A DNA stretch of 48,872 nucleotides from Thermoplasmatales archaeon ex4572_165 (GTDB lineage Archaea; Thermoplasmatota; E2; DHVEG-1). Shown here one piece after another: positions 8,118-32,330 of the stretch; position 1 is the first letter of the stretch; every line of letters begins with the position of its first letter. Below the pieces are notes generated by a model. That model saw nothing but the letters and a program-made list of their open reading frames with translations. It ran no database searches and was not told the DNA's origin. Both the position numbers and the translations under genes were made by a program. Where the stretch lies: positions 1 through 48,872 of the forward strand of contig NJDG01000012.1 in the NCBI GenBank assembly GCA_002254885.1, read 5' to 3'.

Positions 8118-8387
8118 GTTATCCCCCATATTTTGAATTATTTGATCTTTATATGTATTATCTTCATTATTAATAAATATTTATAAAAATTTTTTAGTTA
8201 ATTGACGAATAATTCATAAATTATTAATGAATTTAAATTGAATGAGTAATCCTAATTTAAATATTGAAAAAATTTAATTTATTTGAAATGCAATATAAAC
8301 AAATATATTGGTAACATAATTATAATTTCATGAAGAAAGTTGATAATACAAAAATTTATATTCAACCCATATTATATCATAAATTAT

Positions 8388-9791
8388 ATGAAAAAATTTG
8401 TCAATATTTTTATCATATCTTCTTTTATCCTTTTATCGATGAATTTGGTTTCATGTGTTCAATCACAAGATCATATAATCCATTTTGATTGTCTTCAAAC
8501 AGACAAGGTAATTCATTATCTTAGTGAGATTAATTGTGGCCCATTACCAAATCATGATAATCATGATGGAGTAGATTTAACAAAACAATATCAAGAAGTT
8601 GGAATTGATTTTATTCGAACTCATGATTTCAATGGTCCCACTGATGTCAGTTCAATTTTCCCAGATTTTTCTTTAGATCCATTTCTTGAATCAAGTTATA
8701 ATTTTAGTATTAGTGATCGTTACATTTCGGGCATTATAAATGCAGATTGTAAAGTTTTTTATAGGTTAGGAGAGAGTGCGAGTATTGAAGAACAGTTACG
8801 TCAACCTCCATCTAATTTTACAAAATGGGCTGAGATCTGTAAACATATAATCATGCATTATAATGATGGATGGGCAGATGGATATAATTATAATATCAAA
8901 TATTTTGAGATTTGGAATGAACCTGACCTTATGGGTTTTTTCAATGGAACCGCAGGACAATACTATGAGTTATATAGGACAACTGCTGAAAAATTAAAAG
9001 AATATAATCCATCATTAAAGATTGGAGGGCCATGTACATCTTCAATAAATAATGTAAATTATACAACGGGTTTTTTAACATATGTTTTAGAACATAATAT
9101 CCCGTTGGATTTCTATAGTTGGCATATGTATGCCGATACTCCATTTCAAATATATGAAGCATCAAAAAATGTTAGAAATTTACTAGATAATTTTGGATTA
9201 AAATACACAGAGAGTATTAACACTGAATGGAATATCAATATAGGATTTCCACAGCGCGATAAAAACAATGCAAAAAATGCTGCATTTACAACAAGTACAC
9301 TTACTTTATTGCAGGATACAGGAATAGATTATGCCTTTAGATATCGTGGAACGGGTGATAATAATTTACTTGCTCGTTTTATCGGTTTTGATTTATCATT
9401 ATTTTCATATGATGGTACATACAAAACACCTTCACTTTCATATAAAATTATGAACATTATGGAAAAGAAAACACCAAAACGTATACAAACAGAGAAAATA
9501 GGTGGATTATCAGGAATAACATATTTGGGAGGTATTTCGGAAGATCAATCAAATATCAGCATTCTTATAAGCAATTATGAAGCGGGAGATCAAGAGTATC
9601 AAATCATACTAGATAATATCCCCTGGAACAACTCATACACAATTGTTCATTATGTAATTGATGATAGTTCACATTTTGAAATAAAAGAGGAATATAAAAT
9701 GAACTCATCTTCAATTGAGCTTTCTGAAACCATTAAAAGTTCTACTGTTCATTTTTTCCTATACGATTTATTTTTGCAATGGCATTCATGA
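8388..9791 (+). CDS. Secreted GH39-like beta-xylosidase, lipoprotein
   Basis: This is a clan GH-A (TIM-barrel) glycosidase resembling GH39 xylan beta-xylosidases. Counting from the ATG at 8388, the acid/base is Glu178 in WNEPD and the nucleophile is Glu280 in INTEWN. The N-terminal signal sequence ends in LVSC, a lipobox-like site, so the enzyme is probably exported and lipid-anchored. An upstream TTG at 8340 would put 16 extra residues before the signal, so I prefer the ATG. A beta-sandwich C-terminal part follows the barrel. It opens the block of secreted polysaccharide-active enzymes and would remove xylose or similar sugars from oligomers released by the GH10 enzyme. The precise sugar specificity is inferred. 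Confidence 0.8.
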   Translation: MKKFVNIFIISSFILLSMNLVSCVQSQDHIIHFDCLQTDKVIHYLSEINCGPLPNHDNHDGVDLTKQYQEVGIDFIRTHDFNGPTDVSSIFPDFSLDPFLESSYNFSISDRYISGIINADCKVFYRLGESASIEEQLRQPPSNFTKWAEICKHIIMHYNDGWADGYNYNIKYFEIWNEPDLMGFFNGTAGQYYELYRTTAEKLKEYNPSLKIGGPCTSSINNVNYTTGFLTYVLEHNIPLDFYSWHMYADTPFQIYEASKNVRNLLDNFGLKYTESINTEWNINIGFPQRDKNNAKNAAFTTSTLTLLQDTGIDYAFRYRGTGDNNLLARFIGFDLSLFSYDGTYKTPSLSYKIMNIMEKKTPKRIQTEKIGGLSGITYLGGISEDQSNISILISNYEAGDQEYQIILDNIPWNNSYTIVHYVIDDSSHFEIKEEYKMNSSSIELSETIKSSTVHFFLYDLFLQWHS

Positions 9792-10816: not shown

Positions 10817-10906
10817 ATGCATATGAAAATTAGAAGTACTATTCGAAAAACCCTTTGTGTATTTTTAATTTATTTGTCGATGTTATGGAGAAATAGCTAT
10901 GAATAA
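10817..10906 (+). CDS. 29-codon upstream ORF overlapping the xylanase start
   Basis: A Shine-Dalgarno-like GGGAG (10806-10810) precedes an ATG that opens a 29-residue frame with a basic start and hydrophobic middle (KTLCVFLIYLSMLW). It ends at a TAA at 10904-10906, just inside the xylanase frame, whose ATG is at 10899. It looks like a signal-peptide core and could be a translational-coupling leader, or the remnant of an older gene start. A second Shine-Dalgarno-like GGAG (10887-10890) serves the xylanase ATG itself. Coding status is unproven. Confidence 0.4.
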   Translation: MHMKIRSTIRKTLCVFLIYLSMLWRNSYE

Positions 10907-13595
10907 AAAAAGTGGTAGTTTGATAGTTTGCCTTTTAATTATACTTCAATTGAATATCTATGGATTGGCTCTTGAGGGAGATATCATTTACAATGGTGAT
11001 TTCAAAAATGATTTAGATCACTGGAATCTAGGTGGAGTCGATTCGTATTGTACCTATGATTTGATACCTGGGAATGATTATAATATTCTAAAAATAGATG
11101 TTTTTAATAAACCAGAGCAACTTTGGAATGTTCAGTTATTACAGGAGTATAAAACCTCGGTGAATACGGATGACCTTCTTCTTTTAAACTTCAATATAAA
11201 AAATCCAGATAATAATCTAATTGTTGCAGTTCAGGACAATGGTGATCCATGGGAGAAATATATTTGGATTGACATCCAAAGTTCAAATACAACAGAACAT
11301 TATACAATTGCGTTTGATGGTGGCCTTTACAATTGGGATGCAGAAGAGGTTGAACTATGTTTCTTTTTTGGAGAAAAAACCAGTCTTTTTGAAATATCAA
11401 ATATTTCATTTAAGAATCTAGGGCCTCATATAGATATTAATTCCTTAAATCCAGATATGATTTATCATCCATTTTTTGGAATTCAAAATAATTCAGATAA
11501 TTGGAGACAACCCGCGCTTGAAAGAATTGAGAAAATAAGGAAATCACCATTGACAATTTCCTGTATTAATCAGAACAATATTCCATTGGAACAAGTGGAA
11601 ATCACGATAAATCAGACAAAAAAATATTTTCCATTTGGAGTAGCTGTTGCTGCAAATCTTTATGGGGGTAGAGACTACAACCCGAAATATGTAGAAATGG
11701 TTGAAAAACTTTTTAACATGATCACTATTGAAAACCATTTAAAATGGAAGATGATAGAAGGGGCATATCCCTCTGTTGATTATGTTTTTGATTGGGCGGA
11801 GGAACATAAAATCCCAATTCATGGACATTGTCTTTTCTGGCCATCATTTCATCATTGCCCCGACTGGTTAGAAGAACAATCAACAGAAGATATCTATGAA
11901 AGTGTCATTTCACATGTGGATAACTATTCGAAAGAATTCAAAGGACAGGTTGTCCACTGGGATGTTATTAATGAAGCAATAACAAATGATGAAATATGGG
12001 AGTTATGTGGGATTCAACTACTAGCAGATTGCTATCTGAAAGCAAAAGAAAATGATCCTGAGGCTCTTTTAATGTATAATGATAATGGCTTGTTGATTAA
12101 CAATCCAACAAAACAAGATCAAGTCATAGAACTTATTCGAGAATTACAAGGACGAGGTGCACCAATAGAAGGGCTAGGAATGCAAAGTCATCTAGGTACC
12201 CCACATATTGTCACACCAGAAAATGCTTTAAAAAGTCTTGATAAAATGTCAAATCTCAACCTGCCAATATTTATCACTGAGTTGGATATTGGAACAGAAG
12301 GACACTGGGATTTTCAGGCTGAATACATCAGAGATTTGCTTACTGCATTATACAGTCATGAATCGGTTCATGGTATCATTCAATGGGGTTTCTGGGAGGG
12401 TCATCATTGGAGACCTGATACTGCATTATATACCACAGATTGGACTCCTCGACCTGCAGGGTTAGCATTTGAAGAGATCATGTTCAATGAATGGGAAACC
12501 CATGTAACACGTATTACTAATCAATCTGGAATAGTATCAGAGGAATGTTTTCATGGTGATTTTGAAATAACTGCAAAATATGATAATAATATTATTACAA
12601 ATACAATTACGGTACTTCAAAATGAAACTGCTTCTCTAACTGTAATTATCCATACTGATAATATGCCGCCATCTACTCCTTTGATAAATGGACCAACGAA
12701 TGGAAAAGCAGGAAATCGATATGAATATAGTTTTTCATCATCAGATCCAGATGATGATAATTTATCATACACTATAAATTGGGGAGATGGAACAATTGAA
12801 GGATGGATGGGGCCATATGTTTCAGGTGAACCCATTTCTTTGAATCACACATGGGCTGAAAAAGGAAGTTATCCAATCCATGTGAAGGCAAAAGATATTC
12901 ATAGTGCTGAAAGTGAATGGGGAACGGTTGAAGTATCTATATCAAATTCAAAACAAAAACATCGATTCTCATTAATGAATCTAGTAGATATTCTATATGA
13001 AAGACACCCAATATTAGCACGAATTATCGAATATTTCATATTAAAAGTTAGAGAAACAGATGAACAAACTCTTTTGTTTCCACCGATAAAAGATAGCCCT
13101 ATTTATGAAGTAAATATCGATTATTATCTCAATCATTCATTTCAGGATTTAACAAATGATATCCCTCGTATCGCAGAACTTGGTATCCATACCATGTATA
13201 TTCTTCCAATCATGGAAACCGTATATCCTGACCCCGATGTAGCATATCTCATTAAAGATCATTATGTCATTAATCCTCGTTTTGGAAATGGGGATGATTT
13301 AAGTACACTTGTCGAAACTGCTCATACCTATAATATCCGGGTTCTTCTTGATTTTGTGACCTCTCTTGCATATGAAGGAAGCTATATAGCAGAAGAACAT
13401 CCCGAATGGATTCTTACAGATAATAATGGAGAGAAACAAAGATATTTCTTTCTGAGGTTTCAGGACCAACATTTCTATGGGGAGAAAATGATAGCAATGA
13501 ACTACCATTGTTTGATGAAATGTGTGATGTGGCATATAATTATGAGTTCTGTGGATTTATGGGTGGATCACCTCTTTTTGGGTATCATTATGTGA
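10899..13595 (+). CDS. Secreted GH10 endo-xylanase with CBM, PKD domain and truncated GH13 domain
   Basis: Domain order: a signal peptide (about 1-25); a jelly-roll carbohydrate-binding module of the CBM4/9/22 type (about 29-175, beginning DIIYNGDF); a GH10 barrel (about 215-530) with acid/base Glu359 in DVINEA and nucleophile Glu461 in FITELD; a PKD domain (about 590-685) with WGDG; a basic-hydrophobic tail (about 682-716); then the first third of a GH13 barrel. The reading frame is lost at about 13440, so the last ~50 residues are out-of-frame sequence and the GH13 part continues at 13439-14251. The GH13 region I reads DFVTSLAYEGS where DFVxNH is usual. The xylanase part looks intact and should cut xylan outside the cell. 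The GH13 part cannot work as read. Confidence 0.85.
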   Translation: MNKKSGSLIVCLLIILQLNIYGLALEGDIIYNGDFKNDLDHWNLGGVDSYCTYDLIPGNDYNILKIDVFNKPEQLWNVQLLQEYKTSVNTDDLLLLNFNIKNPDNNLIVAVQDNGDPWEKYIWIDIQSSNTTEHYTIAFDGGLYNWDAEEVELCFFFGEKTSLFEISNISFKNLGPHIDINSLNPDMIYHPFFGIQNNSDNWRQPALERIEKIRKSPLTISCINQNNIPLEQVEITINQTKKYFPFGVAVAANLYGGRDYNPKYVEMVEKLFNMITIENHLKWKMIEGAYPSVDYVFDWAEEHKIPIHGHCLFWPSFHHCPDWLEEQSTEDIYESVISHVDNYSKEFKGQVVHWDVINEAITNDEIWELCGIQLLADCYLKAKENDPEALLMYNDNGLLINNPTKQDQVIELIRELQGRGAPIEGLGMQSHLGTPHIVTPENALKSLDKMSNLNLPIFITELDIGTEGHWDFQAEYIRDLLTALYSHESVHGIIQWGFWEGHHWRPDTALYTTDWTPRPAGLAFEEIMFNEWETHVTRITNQSGIVSEECFHGDFEITAKYDNNIITNTITVLQNETASLTVIIHTDNMPPSTPLINGPTNGKAGNRYEYSFSSSDPDDDNLSYTINWGDGTIEGWMGPYVSGEPISLNHTWAEKGSYPIHVKAKDIHSAESEWGTVEVSISNSKQKHRFSLMNLVDILYERHPILARIIEYFILKVRETDEQTLLFPPIKDSPIYEVNIDYYLNHSFQDLTNDIPRIAELGIHTMYILPIMETVYPDPDVAYLIKDHYVINPRFGNGDDLSTLVETAHTYNIRVLLDFVTSLAYEGSYIAEEHPEWILTDNNGEKQRYFFLRFQDQHFYGEKMIAMNYHCLMKCVMWHIIMSSVDLWVDHLFLGIIM

Positions 13596-14251
13596 TTACA
13601 AATGGATCTCCAACTCCAGACAATCCCTTAGTTGAGACCATTCTTGATGACATTGTCTATAACAAGGCAACATCAATGGAAGTAGTATCGTTTCTAACAA
13701 ATCAAACAATTCTTTATAATGGAACACGGGCAAACTTTATTGAAAACCATGATACTGAACGAGTATCCATTGCATTTCCAAAATCGCAAAAAACACTTTT
13801 TGCTTTGATTTCAACAATACCAGGGATACCTGTGATTCATGCAGGTCAAGAACAAGCCTCATCAAAATCGAAACAAAAACGTACTGACCCAATAAGACCC
13901 TCTTCTGATGAAACATTAGAACCCTTTTATAAACAGATGCTACAGATCAGGGCTAATCATCCAGCGATTCGATATGGGGAAATTCATGATATTTGGAATG
14001 GGGGAGATAATGCTATTGCATTTTTAAGAACCTATGAAAATGATCATGTTCTTGCGATAATGAATTTTGCTGATACACAAAATTCATGTAAACTCAGGAT
14101 CCCTCTGGAAAAAATTGGTTTATCTGAATCATCTACATATATTCTGTATAATGAGCTCACAGGAGAAAAACAATCGATATTAGGTAGTAATCTCTATGAT
14201 TTTGCTATTAATCTTGATTCGTATGATTTTAAGATTCTTAGTATTCAATAA
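13439..14251 (+). pseudogene. Out-of-frame C-terminal two-thirds of the GH13 (alpha-amylase family) domain
   Basis: The frame resumes as KIFLSEVSGPTFLWGEND, where the Glu fits the GH13 acid/base on strand beta-5. It goes on through FIENHDTERV, which holds the conserved NHD transition-state Asp, to a C-terminal beta domain and a stop at 14249-14251. The preceding ORF stops making GH13 sense right after NNGEKQRYF. The section expected between these, which carries the nucleophile Asp (GFRxD motif), is absent. I infer a deletion of very roughly 60-80 codons that is not a multiple of three bases. A TTG at 13508 could start an isolated fragment, but this would be inactive. Either gene decay or an assembly gap. 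Confidence 0.78.
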
Positions 14252-18227: not shown

Positions 18228-19274
18228 ATGAAAGCCATCAAAATAAATATTATTAATAAAAAAATGGTTTACATATCATTTATATTTGTAATATTATTAA
18301 CATCAACAGTTTTTTCAGGTTGTCTTAAAAATATAGGTCTAGGGGGTGAAGATTACCGATGGGATGTAAACTGGATAACACAACAAGATAGCTATGGTAC
18401 TGGCGATTATGGCCGTAGAATCGAAGTTCAGAATGTTTCACGTTTTTATAAGTTTCATATTCCTATTGGATATAACCCTGAGATTTTAACACCCGTGGTT
18501 TTATGTTTACATGGTGGCGGAGGATACCCAGGTGCAGTGAGATATCAAACAGATTTTGATATCCTTGCAGATAATGAAGGATTCATCATAGTATATCCTG
18601 GAGGGCATCATAGATTATGGAATGATCGTCTATTATTTTGGAATGATGGCAGAACACCAAAAAACGATCCTTCTTTTAGTGATATTGATGATGTTGGTTT
18701 CATATCATTATTAATTGATGATTTAGGGATGTATTTTAATATTGATGAAAATCGAATCTTTGCAACAGGCATATCAAATGGTGCAATGATGTCATATCGG
18801 TTAGCTTCTGAATTGTCGAATAAAATTGCAGCTATTGCTCCCGTTGCAGGTCAAAGAGCAATTGGTGAATTTGGACAAGTTCCACCTGTTCCGGTTCCAA
18901 TAATTCATTTTCATGGTATTCTTGATGAATGGGCCCCATATTATGGAGGAAAACAAGTTTCATCATTTTTTCTTGAAGATTTCAGAAATTCAGTTTTAAA
19001 TACTACGATATCATGGGTTATTCATAATAAATGTCCATTGGATCCATATGATACATTTAGAATTGGTAATGCAACCTGTACAAAATATGGACCTGGATTA
19101 AATAATTCGGAGGTAGTCCTTTGGACTCTTGAAGATGGAGGTCATACATGGCCAGGTGGTAAAATCACAAAATCAGAGGGGGATTATTTAGGAATTGGAG
19201 TAGGTCCAATTAATCATGATATATCCTCTATGGAATTAATATGGAAATTTTTTGAAAGTCTTCCAAAACAATAG
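18228..19274 (+). CDS. Secreted PHB-depolymerase/feruloyl-esterase-like lipoprotein (copy 1)
   Basis: This is an alpha/beta hydrolase of the LpqC/PHB depolymerase family, which includes feruloyl and acetyl-xylan esterases. The oxyanion strand is LCLHGGGG. The nucleophile Ser183 lies in GISNGA, the Asp is probably in HGILDEW, and the His is in EDGGHTWPGG. The signal sequence ends FSGC, a lipobox-like site. A second ATG at residue 13 would give a shorter signal peptide. It is a paralog of the gene at 23183. In this gene block it would cut ester-linked ferulate or acetyl groups from xylan to expose the chain; this role is inferred from family and context. Confidence 0.78.
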   Translation: MKAIKINIINKKMVYISFIFVILLTSTVFSGCLKNIGLGGEDYRWDVNWITQQDSYGTGDYGRRIEVQNVSRFYKFHIPIGYNPEILTPVVLCLHGGGGYPGAVRYQTDFDILADNEGFIIVYPGGHHRLWNDRLLFWNDGRTPKNDPSFSDIDDVGFISLLIDDLGMYFNIDENRIFATGISNGAMMSYRLASELSNKIAAIAPVAGQRAIGEFGQVPPVPVPIIHFHGILDEWAPYYGGKQVSSFFLEDFRNSVLNTTISWVIHNKCPLDPYDTFRIGNATCTKYGPGLNNSEVVLWTLEDGGHTWPGGKITKSEGDYLGIGVGPINHDISSMELIWKFFESLPKQ

Positions 19275-19352: not shown

Positions 19353-22300
19353 ATGAAAAAAATCGTAGCCATATTTACCTTAATTATTCTACTTTTTACT
19401 GTTATTGGAGCAGAAGAACTTAGAGTTAATATTCAAGATGATGAAACAGTCATACTTTTTGTGGATATTAATAATATGTACTGTGATGATGATAATCCTG
19501 GAACTGAAGAAGAACCTTTATACCGTATACAGGAGGCTGCAAACCGATCAATTCCTGGGACAATGATATATGTAAAAGAAGGAATCTATTATGAGACTGT
19601 CAATGTTAGAAATTCTGGTAATGTCGATGAGATGATTACTTTTAGTGCATTTGAAGACGATTGTGTTGTTGTTCATTCTACAAGTTATGCCTGTTTTAAT
19701 ATGCAAAATGTGGAGTATATAAAGATAAATGGTTTTGAACTTACAGGAGCCTGGAATGATGGTACTGCGGCTCATGGTGGTGGAATAAAAGGCCATCCAG
19801 GTGTATATGAAGAAGGTGAGTATGGTGTTAGAAATAGTATTTTTTCAAATAATCTTATCTATGATAATGATGCAGGTATGCATCTAGTCTTAAGCGATAA
19901 TAATATGATAAACAATAATATCGTCTTTGATTGTGGGGAAGCATCAATTAGGCTAAAACGATCGAGTAGAAATGAGATATTCAATAATTTAGTATATAAC
20001 AATGGAATAAATGAAGCATGGGGAATCACTTTTTATGGCTCACCTTATACAAAAGTATATCATAACACAATTGTAGAAAGAGAAGGTGGAGCAGTTTATA
20101 TCTATGAGGGAACCTCGAATCTAAATGGTGCAACACCTGGTTCAGAAGAATTTTGTATTCCATCCAGCAATTCAAAGGTATATGACAACATCTGTATCGT
20201 AGCAAAAAATGGAGCACCACTTGTTATTGGAAGTAGTACAACAACAGATAGAAGACCAATTCTTGATGAACTATATGGGCCAGTTGATAATCAATATCAT
20301 CATAATTTATGGCATCATCAAGAAGATAATACAGTTGTTGTAAGCTGGGGAGATCTTTGTTTAGAAGAACCAAATGTTTTGTTAAATCTACAAGACTTTC
20401 AACATGAATATCATGGATATGGATTTGAATCAATGTCAACTGACCCGTTATTCAAAGACACGGAAAACTATAATTTTAACTTAAAATCTACAAGTCCTGC
20501 AAAAAAATCTGCATCAGATGGTACAGATATTGGTGTAGATTTTGATAAGCTCCCTGCAAAATTTAATACAAGACATATTAATTCAAATGATGCAGATGTT
20601 AACATTATTTCAGACATATCAGATAAAGATTATGATATTACTTTTTCCAGTAATGGCATTCCTCCAAATGAGGTTCATATTTATCGTGATTATTATGGAG
20701 TACCTCACATATATGGTGGATCGAATCATGCGATGTTCTTTGGTGAAGGATTTGCTCATGCTGAGGATCATCTTGAGCAGATGTTAGAAAACTACCGTAC
20801 TGTCCAGGGAACTATGGCAGAGGTTTTTGGGTCTGAGTATCTTGCATCAGATAAGCAAATGCGTTTACTTAGAGTAGCTCATATTGTTGATGAAAAGTAT
20901 AATGAGTTATCTTTTGAAGCTAGAGAGGCAGTAGAGGCATTTGCACAAGGTGTCAATTATTACATGGAAAATAACCCAGAGAACGTTCCAGAATGGGCAA
21001 CTCCAGTTACACCCCAAGAGATAGTAGCATGGACGAAGTTAATAATTCTCGCACGACCTCTAGGACGACTTCAAAAAGAAATATTACATGGATTTGGTAA
21101 TTATACCATATTTAGTGACGAGGGTGCTGTTTATGAATCCAATGAATGGGTGGTGGCACCTGAAAAGACTGCTGATGGTCACGTTATGCTTCAGACAGAT
21201 CCTCACCTTTTATGGTCTGGTATGAACTCATGGTATGAAGTACACTTGGAAAGTGATGATTATCATGTTGCCGGTGCAACTATGTGGGGGGTACCAGGTG
21301 TTATGATGGGACATAACGACCATGTTGCATGGGCTTTGACTGCCAACAGCCCTGACACCGCTGATGCATACATCGAGACTATCAAAACGAACTCACTTAA
21401 ATACCGTTACGATGGGCAATGGCTTGATGTAGAAATCATAAATGAAATAATTGAAGTGGCTGGAGAAGGCCCTGTGGAAGTCAAGTTTTATTATACACAC
21501 CATGGTCCAATAGTTTACTACGAAGAAAATATTGCAATCTCAGGTAAAATGAGTACATGGGATCAGGTAGGTGCTATTGATCAATTCCTGGCTTACAATC
21601 GGGCCCAGAATTTGGATGATTTTAAGGATGCACTGTCAATGTTACAATGTGTTCGTTGGAACCATGTTTATGGGGATGTAGATGGAAACATTTTCTATAT
21701 ATGGAATGCCCGTGTGTTTCATCGTCAAGGCAACTATGATTATACAAGACCATTAGATGGAAGTACTTCCAATACAGAATGGGGGGCTCTTGTAACACTT
21801 GAAGAACTGCCGCAGGAAATCAACCCTGAAAGCAAGTTCTTCCAAAACTGCAACACAGCACCATGGTATATCAACCCGTTGACTACAATTAAAGAAGGAG
21901 ATTATCCAGATTATGTTGTTGGAGGTGATTTTGGCGCTCGAGGCATACGTTCGTCTGCCCTATTAGACGCAAAGTGGGATCTTACAGTAAATCGAATGAA
22001 AGAAATATCATTGGACAACTTCTGTTTAAATGCGGAGATGCTGATTCCTCTAGTGGACTATTGCTATGAGCATGAAGGTGAAAACGTATCTGATCCAGAG
22101 GGATGGCTTCCACAGGCTATAGATGTATTAAATGCATGGGATTACAATGCAGATGCAGATGCTAAAGAAGTAGCCCTAGCTAGGTTGTGGATCGAAGAAG
22201 TGAACAGGCAAACTGGGGGTGTTAATCTTCTGGATCCAACACAACCTGAAGATCTCAATGTTGAAGAGATGCATAGATATTTAGAATTATTAATCCATGC

Positions 22301-23072
22301 AACTGAAACAATGTACAGTACATATGATAGCTTAACTATTCCATGGGGAGAAATTCATGTGTTTCAAAGGGGAGATAAGATACTTCCACTCAGTGGTGCA
22401 GGACATGTTTTTAACTCATTGCATATGTCTCATGGCCCAATTTCCGATGATGGAATCATGTACTGCGATAGTGGTTCATCTTATATGATGCTTGTTCAAT
22501 TATCAAATCCCGTACGTGCCTGGAGCCAGTTTCCACTGTCTGAGAGTGATGATCCTGAAAGCTCCCATTATTCAGATATTTCTGAGTTATATAGCAGACA
22601 GGAATACAAGCCTGCATGGTTCACTGAACAAGAAGTGATGGCCAACCTTGATCCAGTTGATCCCAATCCAACCATAATTATCATTCCAGAGGAAAATAAC
22701 CCTCCACTTAGACCAAATATTAAAGGTCCATCAAATGGCAAAGCAGGTAGTAAATATGAATATACATTTACCACAATCGACTCAGATGGAGACGACATCT
22801 TTTATTATATGGAGTGGGGAGATGGTAATAATGACGGCAATACCTGGATTGGACCATATTCATCAGGCGAACAAGTAAAGATAAATCATACTTGGAGTGA
22901 AACCGGAAACTACAATATAAAAGCAAAAGCCAAAGATATCCATGATTCAGAGAGTAACTGGGGAACACTATACATCAGTATGCTAAAAAATAAACAATTA
23001 TTCTTTATGTTAATATGGGAACTGAGTGAATGGTTTCCATTGCTGAAACAAATTTTAATATTGATTACATAA
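19353..23072 (+). CDS. Secreted fusion: beta-helix domain + penicillin acylase (Ntn hydrolase) + PKD + tail
   Basis: Domains in order: signal peptide (about 1-20); a right-handed parallel beta-helix (about 30-395) of the pectate-lyase-like/DUF1565 kind with repeated Asn-rich turns; a penicillin-acylase (peptidase S45) domain from about 445 (VHIYRDYYGVPHIYG) to 1100; a PKD domain (about 1125-1215); and a short hydrophobic tail. The S45 nucleophile is Ser596 in YESNEWVV, which would become the beta-chain N-terminus after self-cleavage. Conserved DPHL, WYEVHL and GHNDHVAWALT follow. The residue before Ser is Glu, where Gly is common. G+C in the acylase part is close to 50% in the rows I counted, against about 27-30% in the beta-helix and tail. 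It likely hydrolyses amide bonds outside the cell (acyl-homoserine lactones, N-acyl compounds or peptides); substrate unknown. Confidence 0.8.
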   Translation: MKKIVAIFTLIILLFTVIGAEELRVNIQDDETVILFVDINNMYCDDDNPGTEEEPLYRIQEAANRSIPGTMIYVKEGIYYETVNVRNSGNVDEMITFSAFEDDCVVVHSTSYACFNMQNVEYIKINGFELTGAWNDGTAAHGGGIKGHPGVYEEGEYGVRNSIFSNNLIYDNDAGMHLVLSDNNMINNNIVFDCGEASIRLKRSSRNEIFNNLVYNNGINEAWGITFYGSPYTKVYHNTIVEREGGAVYIYEGTSNLNGATPGSEEFCIPSSNSKVYDNICIVAKNGAPLVIGSSTTTDRRPILDELYGPVDNQYHHNLWHHQEDNTVVVSWGDLCLEEPNVLLNLQDFQHEYHGYGFESMSTDPLFKDTENYNFNLKSTSPAKKSASDGTDIGVDFDKLPAKFNTRHINSNDADVNIISDISDKDYDITFSSNGIPPNEVHIYRDYYGVPHIYGGSNHAMFFGEGFAHAEDHLEQMLENYRTVQGTMAEVFGSEYLASDKQMRLLRVAHIVDEKYNELSFEAREAVEAFAQGVNYYMENNPENVPEWATPVTPQEIVAWTKLIILARPLGRLQKEILHGFGNYTIFSDEGAVYESNEWVVAPEKTADGHVMLQTDPHLLWSGMNSWYEVHLESDDYHVAGATMWGVPGVMMGHNDHVAWALTANSPDTADAYIETIKTNSLKYRYDGQWLDVEIINEIIEVAGEGPVEVKFYYTHHGPIVYYEENIAISGKMSTWDQVGAIDQFLAYNRAQNLDDFKDALSMLQCVRWNHVYGDVDGNIFYIWNARVFHRQGNYDYTRPLDGSTSNTEWGALVTLEELPQEINPESKFFQNCNTAPWYINPLTTIKEGDYPDYVVGGDFGARGIRSSALLDAKWDLTVNRMKEISLDNFCLNAEMLIPLVDYCYEHEGENVSDPEGWLPQAIDVLNAWDYNADADAKEVALARLWIEEVNRQTGGVNLLDPTQPEDLNVEEMHRYLELLIHATETMYSTYDSLTIPWGEIHVFQRGDKILPLSGAGHVFNSLHMSHGPISDDGIMYCDSGSSYMMLVQLSNPVRAWSQFPLSESDDPESSHYSDISELYSRQEYKPAWFTEQEVMANLDPVDPNPTIIIIPEENNPPLRPNIKGPSNGKAGSKYEYTFTTIDSDGDDIFYYMEWGDGNNDGNTWIGPYSSGEQVKINHTWSETGNYNIKAKAKDIHDSESNWGTLYISMLKNKQLFFMLIWELSEWFPLLKQILILIT

Positions 23073-23182
23073 TTAAAAACAATTGAAATGGTTGAAAACT
23101 TGAATTTAAAAAAGTAATGAAACAATAAATATTATAGATTAGTATCTATTTGGATAAAAAAATAAGCAATGAGCCGATAAAT

Positions 23183-24094
23183 ATGGAAAAAAAGTCAATA
23201 ATAGTAATTTTCATGATTATTATTTTACTAAGTTTCACTCTTTTTAGTGGGTGCATTACAGATAAACAATCAATTGAATATGATGGATTAACAAGAACAT
23301 ATCTTATTCACATACCTGATTTTGATAATGTATTAGAGGAAAAACCGTTACTGATAGCACTTCATGGTGGTGGTGGAAACTCAGAGAACATGAGGGGTAA
23401 AACAGGGTTTAATGATTTGGCAGATGAACATGGTTTTATTGTTGTATACCCAGATGGAACAGGGAAGTTAAAGAATAAACTAGTATGGAATGCAGGTTAT
23501 TGTTGCGGATCAGCACTAGAAAATAATGTTGATGATGTTGGATTTATTGATGCTTTAATTAAAGAACTTCAAAAAACTCTAAATATTGATGAGAATGGAA
23601 TTTATGTAACAGGTCATTCAAATGGAGGAATGATGGCATATCGTCTTGGTTCTGAACTCTCAGATATTATTGCTGCAATCGCACCAGTAGCTGGAACAAT
23701 CGGTGGGCAAGCAACAGAAGAAGAAAACATCTGGCAAATACCAGTTCCAAATAATCCTGTTTCAGTGATTGCATTTCATGGGCTTCTTGATCAAAGTGTT
23801 CCATATTATGGAGGACATGGGAATAGAACAAGTGGAACAAGAATCGATTTTTCTGTAAATCAATCTATTTCGTTTTGGGTTGAAAAGAACAATTGTAATC
23901 CTGTTCCAGATATAGATGAACAAGGAAATATCTCAGTAAAAACATATTTGGGTGGAGATCGTGGTACAGAAGTTGTTTTGTATACTATAATAAATGGTGA
24001 TCATTACTGGCCAGGTTCACAAAAAGATCCATATATGGATGTATCAGCTAGTGAAATCATCTGGGATTTTTTTAAGACTCATCCAAAACAATAA
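23183..24094 (+). CDS. Secreted PHB-depolymerase/feruloyl-esterase-like lipoprotein (copy 2)
   Basis: This is a second alpha/beta hydrolase of the same family as the gene at 18228. The oxyanion segment is IALHGGGG, the nucleophile Ser146 is in GHSNGGM, the probable Asp is in HGLLDQS, and the His is in NGDHYWPG. Long shared stretches (NIDEN, MMAYRL/MMSYRL, IAAIAPVAG) show that the two are paralogs. I start at the ATG at 23183 because it gives a compact signal peptide ending FSGC (lipobox-like). A TTG at 23150 would add 11 residues. The gene ends the polysaccharide block. A role in removing ester groups from plant or algal polysaccharide is inferred. Confidence 0.77.
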   Translation: MEKKSIIVIFMIIILLSFTLFSGCITDKQSIEYDGLTRTYLIHIPDFDNVLEEKPLLIALHGGGGNSENMRGKTGFNDLADEHGFIVVYPDGTGKLKNKLVWNAGYCCGSALENNVDDVGFIDALIKELQKTLNIDENGIYVTGHSNGGMMAYRLGSELSDIIAAIAPVAGTIGGQATEEENIWQIPVPNNPVSVIAFHGLLDQSVPYYGGHGNRTSGTRIDFSVNQSISFWVEKNNCNPVPDIDEQGNISVKTYLGGDRGTEVVLYTIINGDHYWPGSQKDPYMDVSASEIIWDFFKTHPKQ

Positions 24095-30962: not shown

Positions 30963-32330
30963 ATGATTGATTTCAACACCTATATGGACAACCTTCATAA
31001 AAATATTTCAAGTTATGCTCCACAAAAAACCGAACAACCTGAACTTTATGAATCATTATTCAAACCAAAAGACATCTACCGCATACCACTTGATGAAGCA
31101 GAAAAAATGCAGTTAAAGACCATCAAAGCAGCATTTATCCACCATTATAACAACAATCCTTTTTATCATAATTTTTGTAAAGAACATTCAATAACCCCTG
31201 AGGATATCAAAACAAATGATGATCTTACAAAAATTCCTCTTATTCCAGATAAATTCTTTAAAGATTACCCTGAAGGTAAAGAATATGCAACATGGATTGC
31301 TAATATATATACAGGGGAACTGCCCAAAATTGTTATAAAACAAAAAAAACCAACATATGATGATGTTATTGATGCATTTCACGAAGCAGGAATCTATGTA
31401 ACATATAGCAGTGGAACTGGTGGAAGACATACATTTATCCCACGGGATAAAACCACATTTTTAAATGCAGAATATACCCTAGCCAAATCACTTGTCCCAA
31501 TGATCTACCCCTTATGGAAACATGATTCATATGGTTATTTATTAATGCCAAATCCTAAACTTAATTTTATTTTCGCAGGAAAAGCCCTTGAGATATATTT
31601 TGATGCGGTAAAAAACGTTGAAGTGGCTATTGACCGGAAGATCAATACAGAATTAATTGAAATGACAATGCATGGAAAAAAGGGGTTAAAGAGCAAAATT
31701 GTTCGTCATATTGCAAGTAAAGGAGCAAAAAACATGATCGATGACATCATCGATTGGCTTGAAGTTCGCGATAAAGCAAATGATACTATAACGCTAGTTG
31801 GAGCTCCATATATCCTTTATGCAGTTATGGAAAAATTGAAACAGCAAGGGAGAAGTTTTAATTTTGGAGAAAGAGGCGGAGTTGCAACGGGAGGAGGTTG
31901 GAAGATTCATGAACATAAGCGTATGCCAGTATCTGATTTTAGAAAAGAAGTTAAAGATGTTTTAGGAATTCCAGAAAAATTCTGTTTAGATATTTACGGT
32001 ATGGTTGAAGGAAATGGCTGGTTAACTCAATGTCCAGAAGGACATTATCTTCACGCCCCATATTCATTTTATAAACCCTTAGTTTTGGATGAAGAATTCA
32101 AACCCGCAGAATATGGTGAATGGGGGCAATATGCATTTCTTGATGGGGCTGCAAGAAGTTACCCAGGATTTATTGTTACAGGCGATAAAGTTAGATTATT
32201 GAAACGATGTCCAGTCTGCGATCGACCAGGGCCAGTTCTTGAACCAGAAGTTAAACGTGTGAAAGGTGCTGATGTACGTGGATGTGCAGAAGAAGTACGT
32301 CGAATGTTAACATCAGATCTTGGCGATTAA
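30963..32330 (+). CDS. LuxE/PaaK-like acyl-activating enzyme (acyl-protein synthetase)
   Basis: The 455-residue protein belongs to the ANL adenylate-forming superfamily in its LuxE-like branch, which activates a carboxylic acid as an acyl-AMP and passes it to a thiol. The nucleotide loop is TYSSGTGGR at residues 147-155. Later GATGGGW-like (GGVATGGGWKIH) and YGMVEGNGW segments match the LuxE pattern. A CPVCDRPGPV Cys pair lies near 418-427. The substrate acid is unknown; there is no LuxC or LuxD nearby. It forms an operon with the transglutaminase-like gene 15 bases downstream, which suggests the two act on the same product or protein. The start is well supported by AAGGAG. Confidence 0.75.
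   Translation: MIDFNTYMDNLHKNISSYAPQKTEQPELYESLFKPKDIYRIPLDEAEKMQLKTIKAAFIHHYNNNPFYHNFCKEHSITPEDIKTNDDLTKIPLIPDKFFKDYPEGKEYATWIANIYTGELPKIVIKQKKPTYDDVIDAFHEAGIYVTYSSGTGGRHTFIPRDKTTFLNAEYTLAKSLVPMIYPLWKHDSYGYLLMPNPKLNFIFAGKALEIYFDAVKNVEVAIDRKINTELIEMTMHGKKGLKSKIVRHIASKGAKNMIDDIIDWLEVRDKANDTITLVGAPYILYAVMEKLKQQGRSFNFGERGGVATGGGWKIHEHKRMPVSDFRKEVKDVLGIPEKFCLDIYGMVEGNGWLTQCPEGHYLHAPYSFYKPLVLDEEFKPAEYGEWGQYAFLDGAARSYPGFIVTGDKVRLLKRCPVCDRPGPVLEPEVKRVKGADVRGCAEEVRRMLTSDLGD

Follow-up and report, generated by a model that had tools for sequence, protein, structure and literature searches.

Gene layout, active site, and genomic setting

The window, that is, the whole stretch of DNA analyzed (48,872 nucleotides), carries a five-part acylase gene whose features are collected in Table 1. 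The S45 domain scored 486.8 bits against PF01804 (Pfam cut-off 21.3) and covered profile positions 1 to 673 of 675; this was the single S45 gene found in the source genome, which is 73% complete and consists of 55 contigs. The β-helix module was recognized by Pfam matches to PF13229 (41.3 bits, cut-off 25.9) and PF05048 at approximately residues 142 to 256. The PKD domain (residues 1135–1199) scored 22.6 bits against PF00801, for which the gathering cut-off is 23.5, and it has homologs in many unambiguous PKD-tail proteins of the archaeon's family; together with the hydrophobic tail, it is ∼40 to 55% identical to the tails carried by dozens of further proteins of this family. The signal peptide has no lipobox, which suggests export of the predicted protein without a lipid anchor.

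Table 1. Features of the acylase gene, in window coordinates
Feature	Position	Strand	Basis or remark
Whole ORF, 1239 aa	19353..23072	+	Signal peptide, β-helix, S45 acylase, PKD, C-terminal tail
Signal peptide, residues 1–24	19353..19424	+	Reciprocal best match to HyVt-387 acylase signal
Inserted right-handed β-helix module and linker, ∼residues 30–428	19440..20636	+	PF13229/PF05048; borders approximate
S45 penicillin-amidase domain, residues 440–1095	20670..22637	+	PF01804, E = 2.2e-145; high GC3s
Ser596 codon, predicted autoproteolysis site and nucleophile (β-Ser1)	21138..21140	+	Invariant in 65/65 aligned S45 sequences
His618 codon (β-His23)	21204..21206	+	60/65 sequences; cephalosporin acylase alignment
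Asn834 codon, oxyanion-hole Asn (β-Asn244 of cephalosporin acylase)	21852..21854	+	57/57 sequences with a residue in this column
Arg863 codon, active-site Arg	21939..21941	+	53/57 sequences with a residue in this column
PKD domain and hydrophobic C-terminal tail, residues 1096–1239	22638..23069	+	PF00801 just below cut-off; GC3s equal to that of S45

The original prediction for this DNA had stated that the Ser596 nucleophile is kept. This was confirmed, with correct numbering, and the other active-site residues (His618, Asn834, and Arg863) are present as well. The four align with β-Ser1, β-His23, the oxyanion Asn, and the active-site Arg known from S45 enzymes such as cephalosporin acylase and PvdQ. 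Because the catalytic residues are present, the protein probably works as an N-acyl-amide hydrolase, and we predict an exported, self-cleaving enzyme. Residue 595, immediately before the nucleophile, is Glu in the window and in the related genome G003, and Gly in most relatives, which counts somewhat against cleavage at this otherwise conserved site.

The acylase gene is flanked on both sides by genes for lipoprotein-like enzymes of the PHB-depolymerase/feruloyl-esterase type (18228–19274 and 23150–24094, +), both of low GC3s (∼0.14). Genes of the GH39 and GH10 families lie upstream. The GH39 gene (8340–9791, +) has a counterpart directly upstream of the acylase in HyVt-387 (locus L065, 11607–13314, +), where it is split across two overlapping frames; identity between the two products is 49% in one part and 37% in another. 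Beyond the usual C-terminal tail, the reading frame of the GH10-PKD-tail protein (10899–14251, +) stays open and takes in the beginning of a GH13 amylase. The remainder of this amylase (13508–14251) lies in a different frame, and a large share of its catalytic middle (Pfam positions ∼90–304) is lacking. The arrangement suggests an amylase in decay that became joined to the xylanase gene, which would make it a second gene join near the acylase. Farther downstream, a gene for a LuxE-type acyl-protein synthetase (30963–32330, +; PF04443, E = 2e-30) is followed by a transglutaminase-like gene.

The arrangement of a PKD domain, an SMPKNK-like motif, and a hydrophobic/amphipathic C-terminal tail of ∼30 residues recurs on very many proteins of the family (22638–23069 and 12639–13025 in the window, and many other loci, including L005–L021, L064, L066, and L068). 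We found no Pfam or NCBIfam model naming this PKD-associated tail, and the motif is unmentioned in the literature searched; the arrangement may serve for surface retention or sorting in a manner specific to the lineage.

Base composition along the reading frame

The original prediction drew on the G+C counts of seven 60-base rows (29, 31, 30, and 29 in the acylase, 16 and 18 in the β-helix, and 16 in the tail), all of which were exact on recount. These rows are extremes, the means per 60 bases being 24.7 for S45, 19.6 for the β-helix, and 19.2 for the remaining window. The rise in the acylase part is real: the G+C content of the S45 region was 0.411, above that of all 100 genes sampled from the source genome (0.329 ± 0.025), and among the 1,968-bp stretches of the window the one with the most G+C (0.414) begins at 20697, in the S45 region, with the best stretch outside the gene at 0.378. 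Synonymous composition was unusual in part of the protein as well, the GC3s of S45 (0.274) topping the same 100 genes (0.177 ± 0.027). The codon background consisted of the window and ∼110 kb of further stretches from the same genome. When the S45 amino acids were recoded with the genome's own codon usage, the predicted G+C content was 0.378; thus 0.049 of the 0.082 excess (∼60%) is due to amino-acid composition, and synonymous codon choice supplies the other 0.033.

GC3s was 0.158 for residues 1 to 430 (signal and β-helix), 0.274 for S45, and 0.254 for the PKD domain with its tail. A single changepoint was detected in the reading frame, at residue 457 (near-equal fits at 450–475), and none of 2000 permutations gave one as strong; it sits ∼20 to 30 residues inside S45, an offset within its resolution. 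There was no second GC3s changepoint to the right of residue 457. The β-helix differed from S45 (Fisher P = 2e-5), whereas S45 and the PKD tail did not differ (P = 0.67). Of the two G+C changes at domain borders in the original prediction, the one between β-helix and S45 is thus also seen in GC3s; the one between S45 and PKD is an amino-acid effect only, the GC3s of the PKD tail being the same as that of S45. S45 and PKD form one compositional unit with unusual GC3s, and the β-helix looks native to the host genome.

In two class relatives of the acylase, the S45 domain fits the codon usage of its host (GC3s of 0.234 versus 0.234 in HyVt-387 and 0.138 versus 0.155 in G003), and therefore neither the domain nor its conservation forces a high GC3s. 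Expression or constraint as the cause of the high value was rejected on these normal values and on the occurrence of the step inside one reading frame.

Relatives of the acylase and probable order of events

A signal-S45-PKD protein without the β-helix was found in three relatives of the same class: HyVt-387 ("Thermoplasmatales archaeon," DRIF01000136.1), G003, and G015, with S45 identities to the window acylase of 70, 68, and 66%, respectively. G003 and G015 belong to the window's own family and HyVt-387 to another family of the class; the acylases of G156 and HyVt-387, which are equal in length and score, were counted as one relative. All three proteins are orthologous to the window protein in layout (signal, compact S45 domain, and PKD) and have its catalytic residues, but the β-helix region is a gap in each when they are aligned to it.

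The signal peptide also belongs to this comparison. Window residues 1 to 24 (MKKIVAIFTLIILLFTVIGAEELR) and the signal of the HyVt-387 acylase (MRKFVSICMILILLFSILGIGEFN) were reciprocal best matches with a score of 54, and the runner-up among 69 signal-like N-termini scored 37 against the window signal. The corresponding DNA match just reached the shuffle maximum, so it is the protein comparison that carries the claim of homology. DNA similarity to HyVt-387 became clear again at the codons for GIPPNEVHIYRD (∼residue 430), and for the remaining linker DNA the similarity was no better than that of shuffles. Direct repeats at the insertion borders amounted to just one 8-mer in AT-rich DNA and were uninformative. 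Judged by these alignments, the two flanks (signal to the left, S45-PKD to the right) are parts of the acylase and the ∼400 residues between them are not.

Because both flanks are homologous to relatives that have no β-helix, the module appears to have been inserted into an existing acylase gene. We consider it quite likely that the layout of signal, S45, PKD, and tail is ancestral and that the β-helix of ∼400 residues entered it in frame, with the direction inferred from the relatives. The single GC3s step near the β-helix/S45 border and the use of comparable β-helix modules before other domains in the class speak for this as well. The original prediction was right that a domain fusion took place and that its setting is archaeal. 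Its further proposal, an acylase joined to a β-helix/PKD frame that already existed, is not supported, given the three insert-free relatives, the composition common to S45 and PKD, and a signal that is the acylase's own; most likely, the order of events was the reverse, with the acylase old and the β-helix the newcomer.

Two other histories of the fused gene were weighed. An ancestral β-helix could have been lost in the three relatives, or the S45-PKD part of a resident β-helix-S45-PKD gene could have been replaced by a related copy of higher GC3. The position of the window protein as sister to G003, rather than as a basal branch, counts in favor of these histories, and replacement would explain the raised GC3s of S45-PKD together with the native composition of the N-terminal part. 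Loss, however, would have to have happened several times independently, since all three relatives, two of them from the window's own family, are without the module. With three known relatives of the S45-PKD body, loss in all of them retains a small share of the probability, and overall we regard this pair of explanations as unlikely. We give still less credence to an assembly chimera in which β-helix and acylase were joined in the contig only. The assembly has 55 contigs and the fusion was seen once, but the acylase's own signal precedes the β-helix, so that a chimera with one junction is ruled out and two in-frame false joins would be required.

In a tree of 54 S45 sequences, the four compact archaeal sequences formed one clade restricted to Thermoplasmatota (support 100/100), in which the window S45 was the sister of G003 (97/98), from the same family. 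This clade lay on the side of the compact bacterial acylases (Pseudomonadota, cyanobacteria, Spirosoma, and PvdQ), separated from the remaining S45 proteins of Thermoplasmatota (100/99); the bacteria sampled were Pseudomonadota genomes and plasmid records, which weakens the deep placement only. The compact acylases of cyanobacteria, Spirosoma, and sphingomonad-type Pseudomonadota resemble the window S45 in length and are nearest to it on the bacterial side, but they are free-standing proteins of roughly 700 to 820 residues with ∼26 to 30% identity. The compact S45 type may once have come from bacteria; any such origin would have long preceded the β-helix fusion because the compact type is common to two archaeal families.

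The original prediction had favored gain of S45 from a higher-G+C donor and its joining to a secreted β-helix/PKD frame; we weighed this as a recent gain from a bacterial donor. The excess of S45 over all sampled genes in G+C and GC3s, as well as the grouping of the compact type with bacterial acylases deep in the tree, would suit such a course. We nonetheless hold it to be highly improbable: the best bacterial matches are ∼30% identical or less, against 66 to 70% for the class relatives; these relatives have S45-PKD without the β-helix; the PKD composition equals that of S45; and the signal peptide derives from the acylase itself. The nesting of the window S45 in the Thermoplasmatota clade, and the match of two relatives to their hosts' codons, likewise speak against a higher-G+C donor of this kind. 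A bacterial donor of the window acylase was rejected on the tree and the identities.

The S45-PKD body could also have been inherited vertically, with the raised GC3s a local quirk, an explanation that concerns this body only and is compatible with insertion of the β-helix. Its nearest neighbor in the tree comes from the same family, and its GC3s lies just ∼0.1 above the mean. However, this GC3s exceeds that of 100/100 genes, expression does not explain a step inside one reading frame, and the compact S45 type was found in only 3 of 45 genomes of the family, both genus-mates being without S45. Vertical descent without transfer thus seems to us possible and somewhat doubtful. In view of the patchy presence and the raised GC3s, a later transfer from one class member to another is plausible, although unproven; the body would then have come from an unsampled member with slightly higher third-position G+C. 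The HyVt-387 lineage was rejected as the direct donor because its GC3s is lower (0.234 versus 0.274) and its codon usage fits the window S45 no better than the genome's own.

Of the observations that would count against the original prediction, a tree with the acylase inside Thermoplasmatota was obtained, but no archaeal homolog with the same fusion was found. A second β-helix-S45 fusion was detected neither among 80 genomes of the class nor elsewhere in a 390-genome sample of the phylum, in which one other S45 reading frame was long enough for both domains and had its surplus at the C-terminus. There are reports of penicillin amidase in other Thermoplasmatota (PMC9287336) and of PKD-bearing peptidases in Thermoprofundales, the MBG-D archaea (PMC6461988); we found no report of an acylase with a β-helix or PKD domain in the literature searched.

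Predicted working of the exported enzyme

Among solved structures, the cephalosporin (glutaryl-7-ACA) acylases (PDB 3s8r and 1ghd) were the best matches over the whole S45 domain, with Ser1, His23, and Asn244 aligned; they are well under 30 to 35% identical by alignment and have neither β-helix nor PKD domain, and their substrate preference is not transferable. PvdQ-type acyl-homoserine-lactone acylases share the Ntn-hydrolase family, the active-site residues, and the side of the tree with the window protein, but PvdQ itself sits on a long branch, and the window protein clearly failed the NCBIfam PvdQ equivalog test (145.3 bits versus a cut-off of 950).

The structural model of the β-helix was a coil of short strands of moderate quality (mean pLDDT of 57). 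Its matches (PL6, Pel9A, GH136, and GH120) reflect likeness at the level of the fold only and suggest that the modeled fold is nearest to carbohydrate-active enzymes. On the basis of this fold type and of the glycoside hydrolase and esterase neighbors, our best guess is that the β-helix targets a glycan. Relatives of the module in the family are just ∼30% identical, and other modules of the class are ∼28 to 29% identical. Three class proteins (L077, 68–2278, +; L096, 1–2265, −; and L100, 1372–3189, +) resemble the window protein in having an N-terminal signal and a full β-helix before another domain, although their β-helix is just 28 to 29% identical to that of the window and the second domain is not S45. 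This conserved second domain ('YYGVDTI...SHEPFWNDGNPFTT...') had no Pfam match and is possibly an undescribed catalytic domain.

In the working that we propose, a complete right-handed β-helix module would have entered the gene in frame, after the signal peptide and ahead of the S45 domain, and the exported precursor would cleave itself between Glu595 and Ser596. The α chain would carry the β-helix at its N-terminus, and the β chain would have Ser596 as its free N-terminal nucleophile and the PKD domain with the tail at its C-terminus. The two chains would stay joined as a heterodimer that hydrolyzes an N-acyl amide extracellularly; the β-helix would serve as a putative glycan-binding or positioning module, and the PKD/tail part would hold the enzyme at the cell surface. 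A bolder idea, which we rate as a long shot, is a bifunctional surface enzyme in which a glycan-active β-helix in the α chain and the N-acyl-amide hydrolase in the β chain act jointly on N-acylated polysaccharides or glycoconjugates, the β-helix having been captured recently by an acylase that is mobile among Thermoplasmatota.

Composition made the G+C-rich catalytic part look like the late addition; comparison with the relatives shows S45 to be the shared core. With insert-free relatives, homologous flanks, and a step in composition between the parts, the gene is a clear example of how an exported enzyme of archaea can gain a domain by insertion. The β-helix-S45 layout was found in no second genome of those sampled; apart from that, the gene is a modest, if uncommon, instance of ordinary shuffling of domains within a known family of enzymes.
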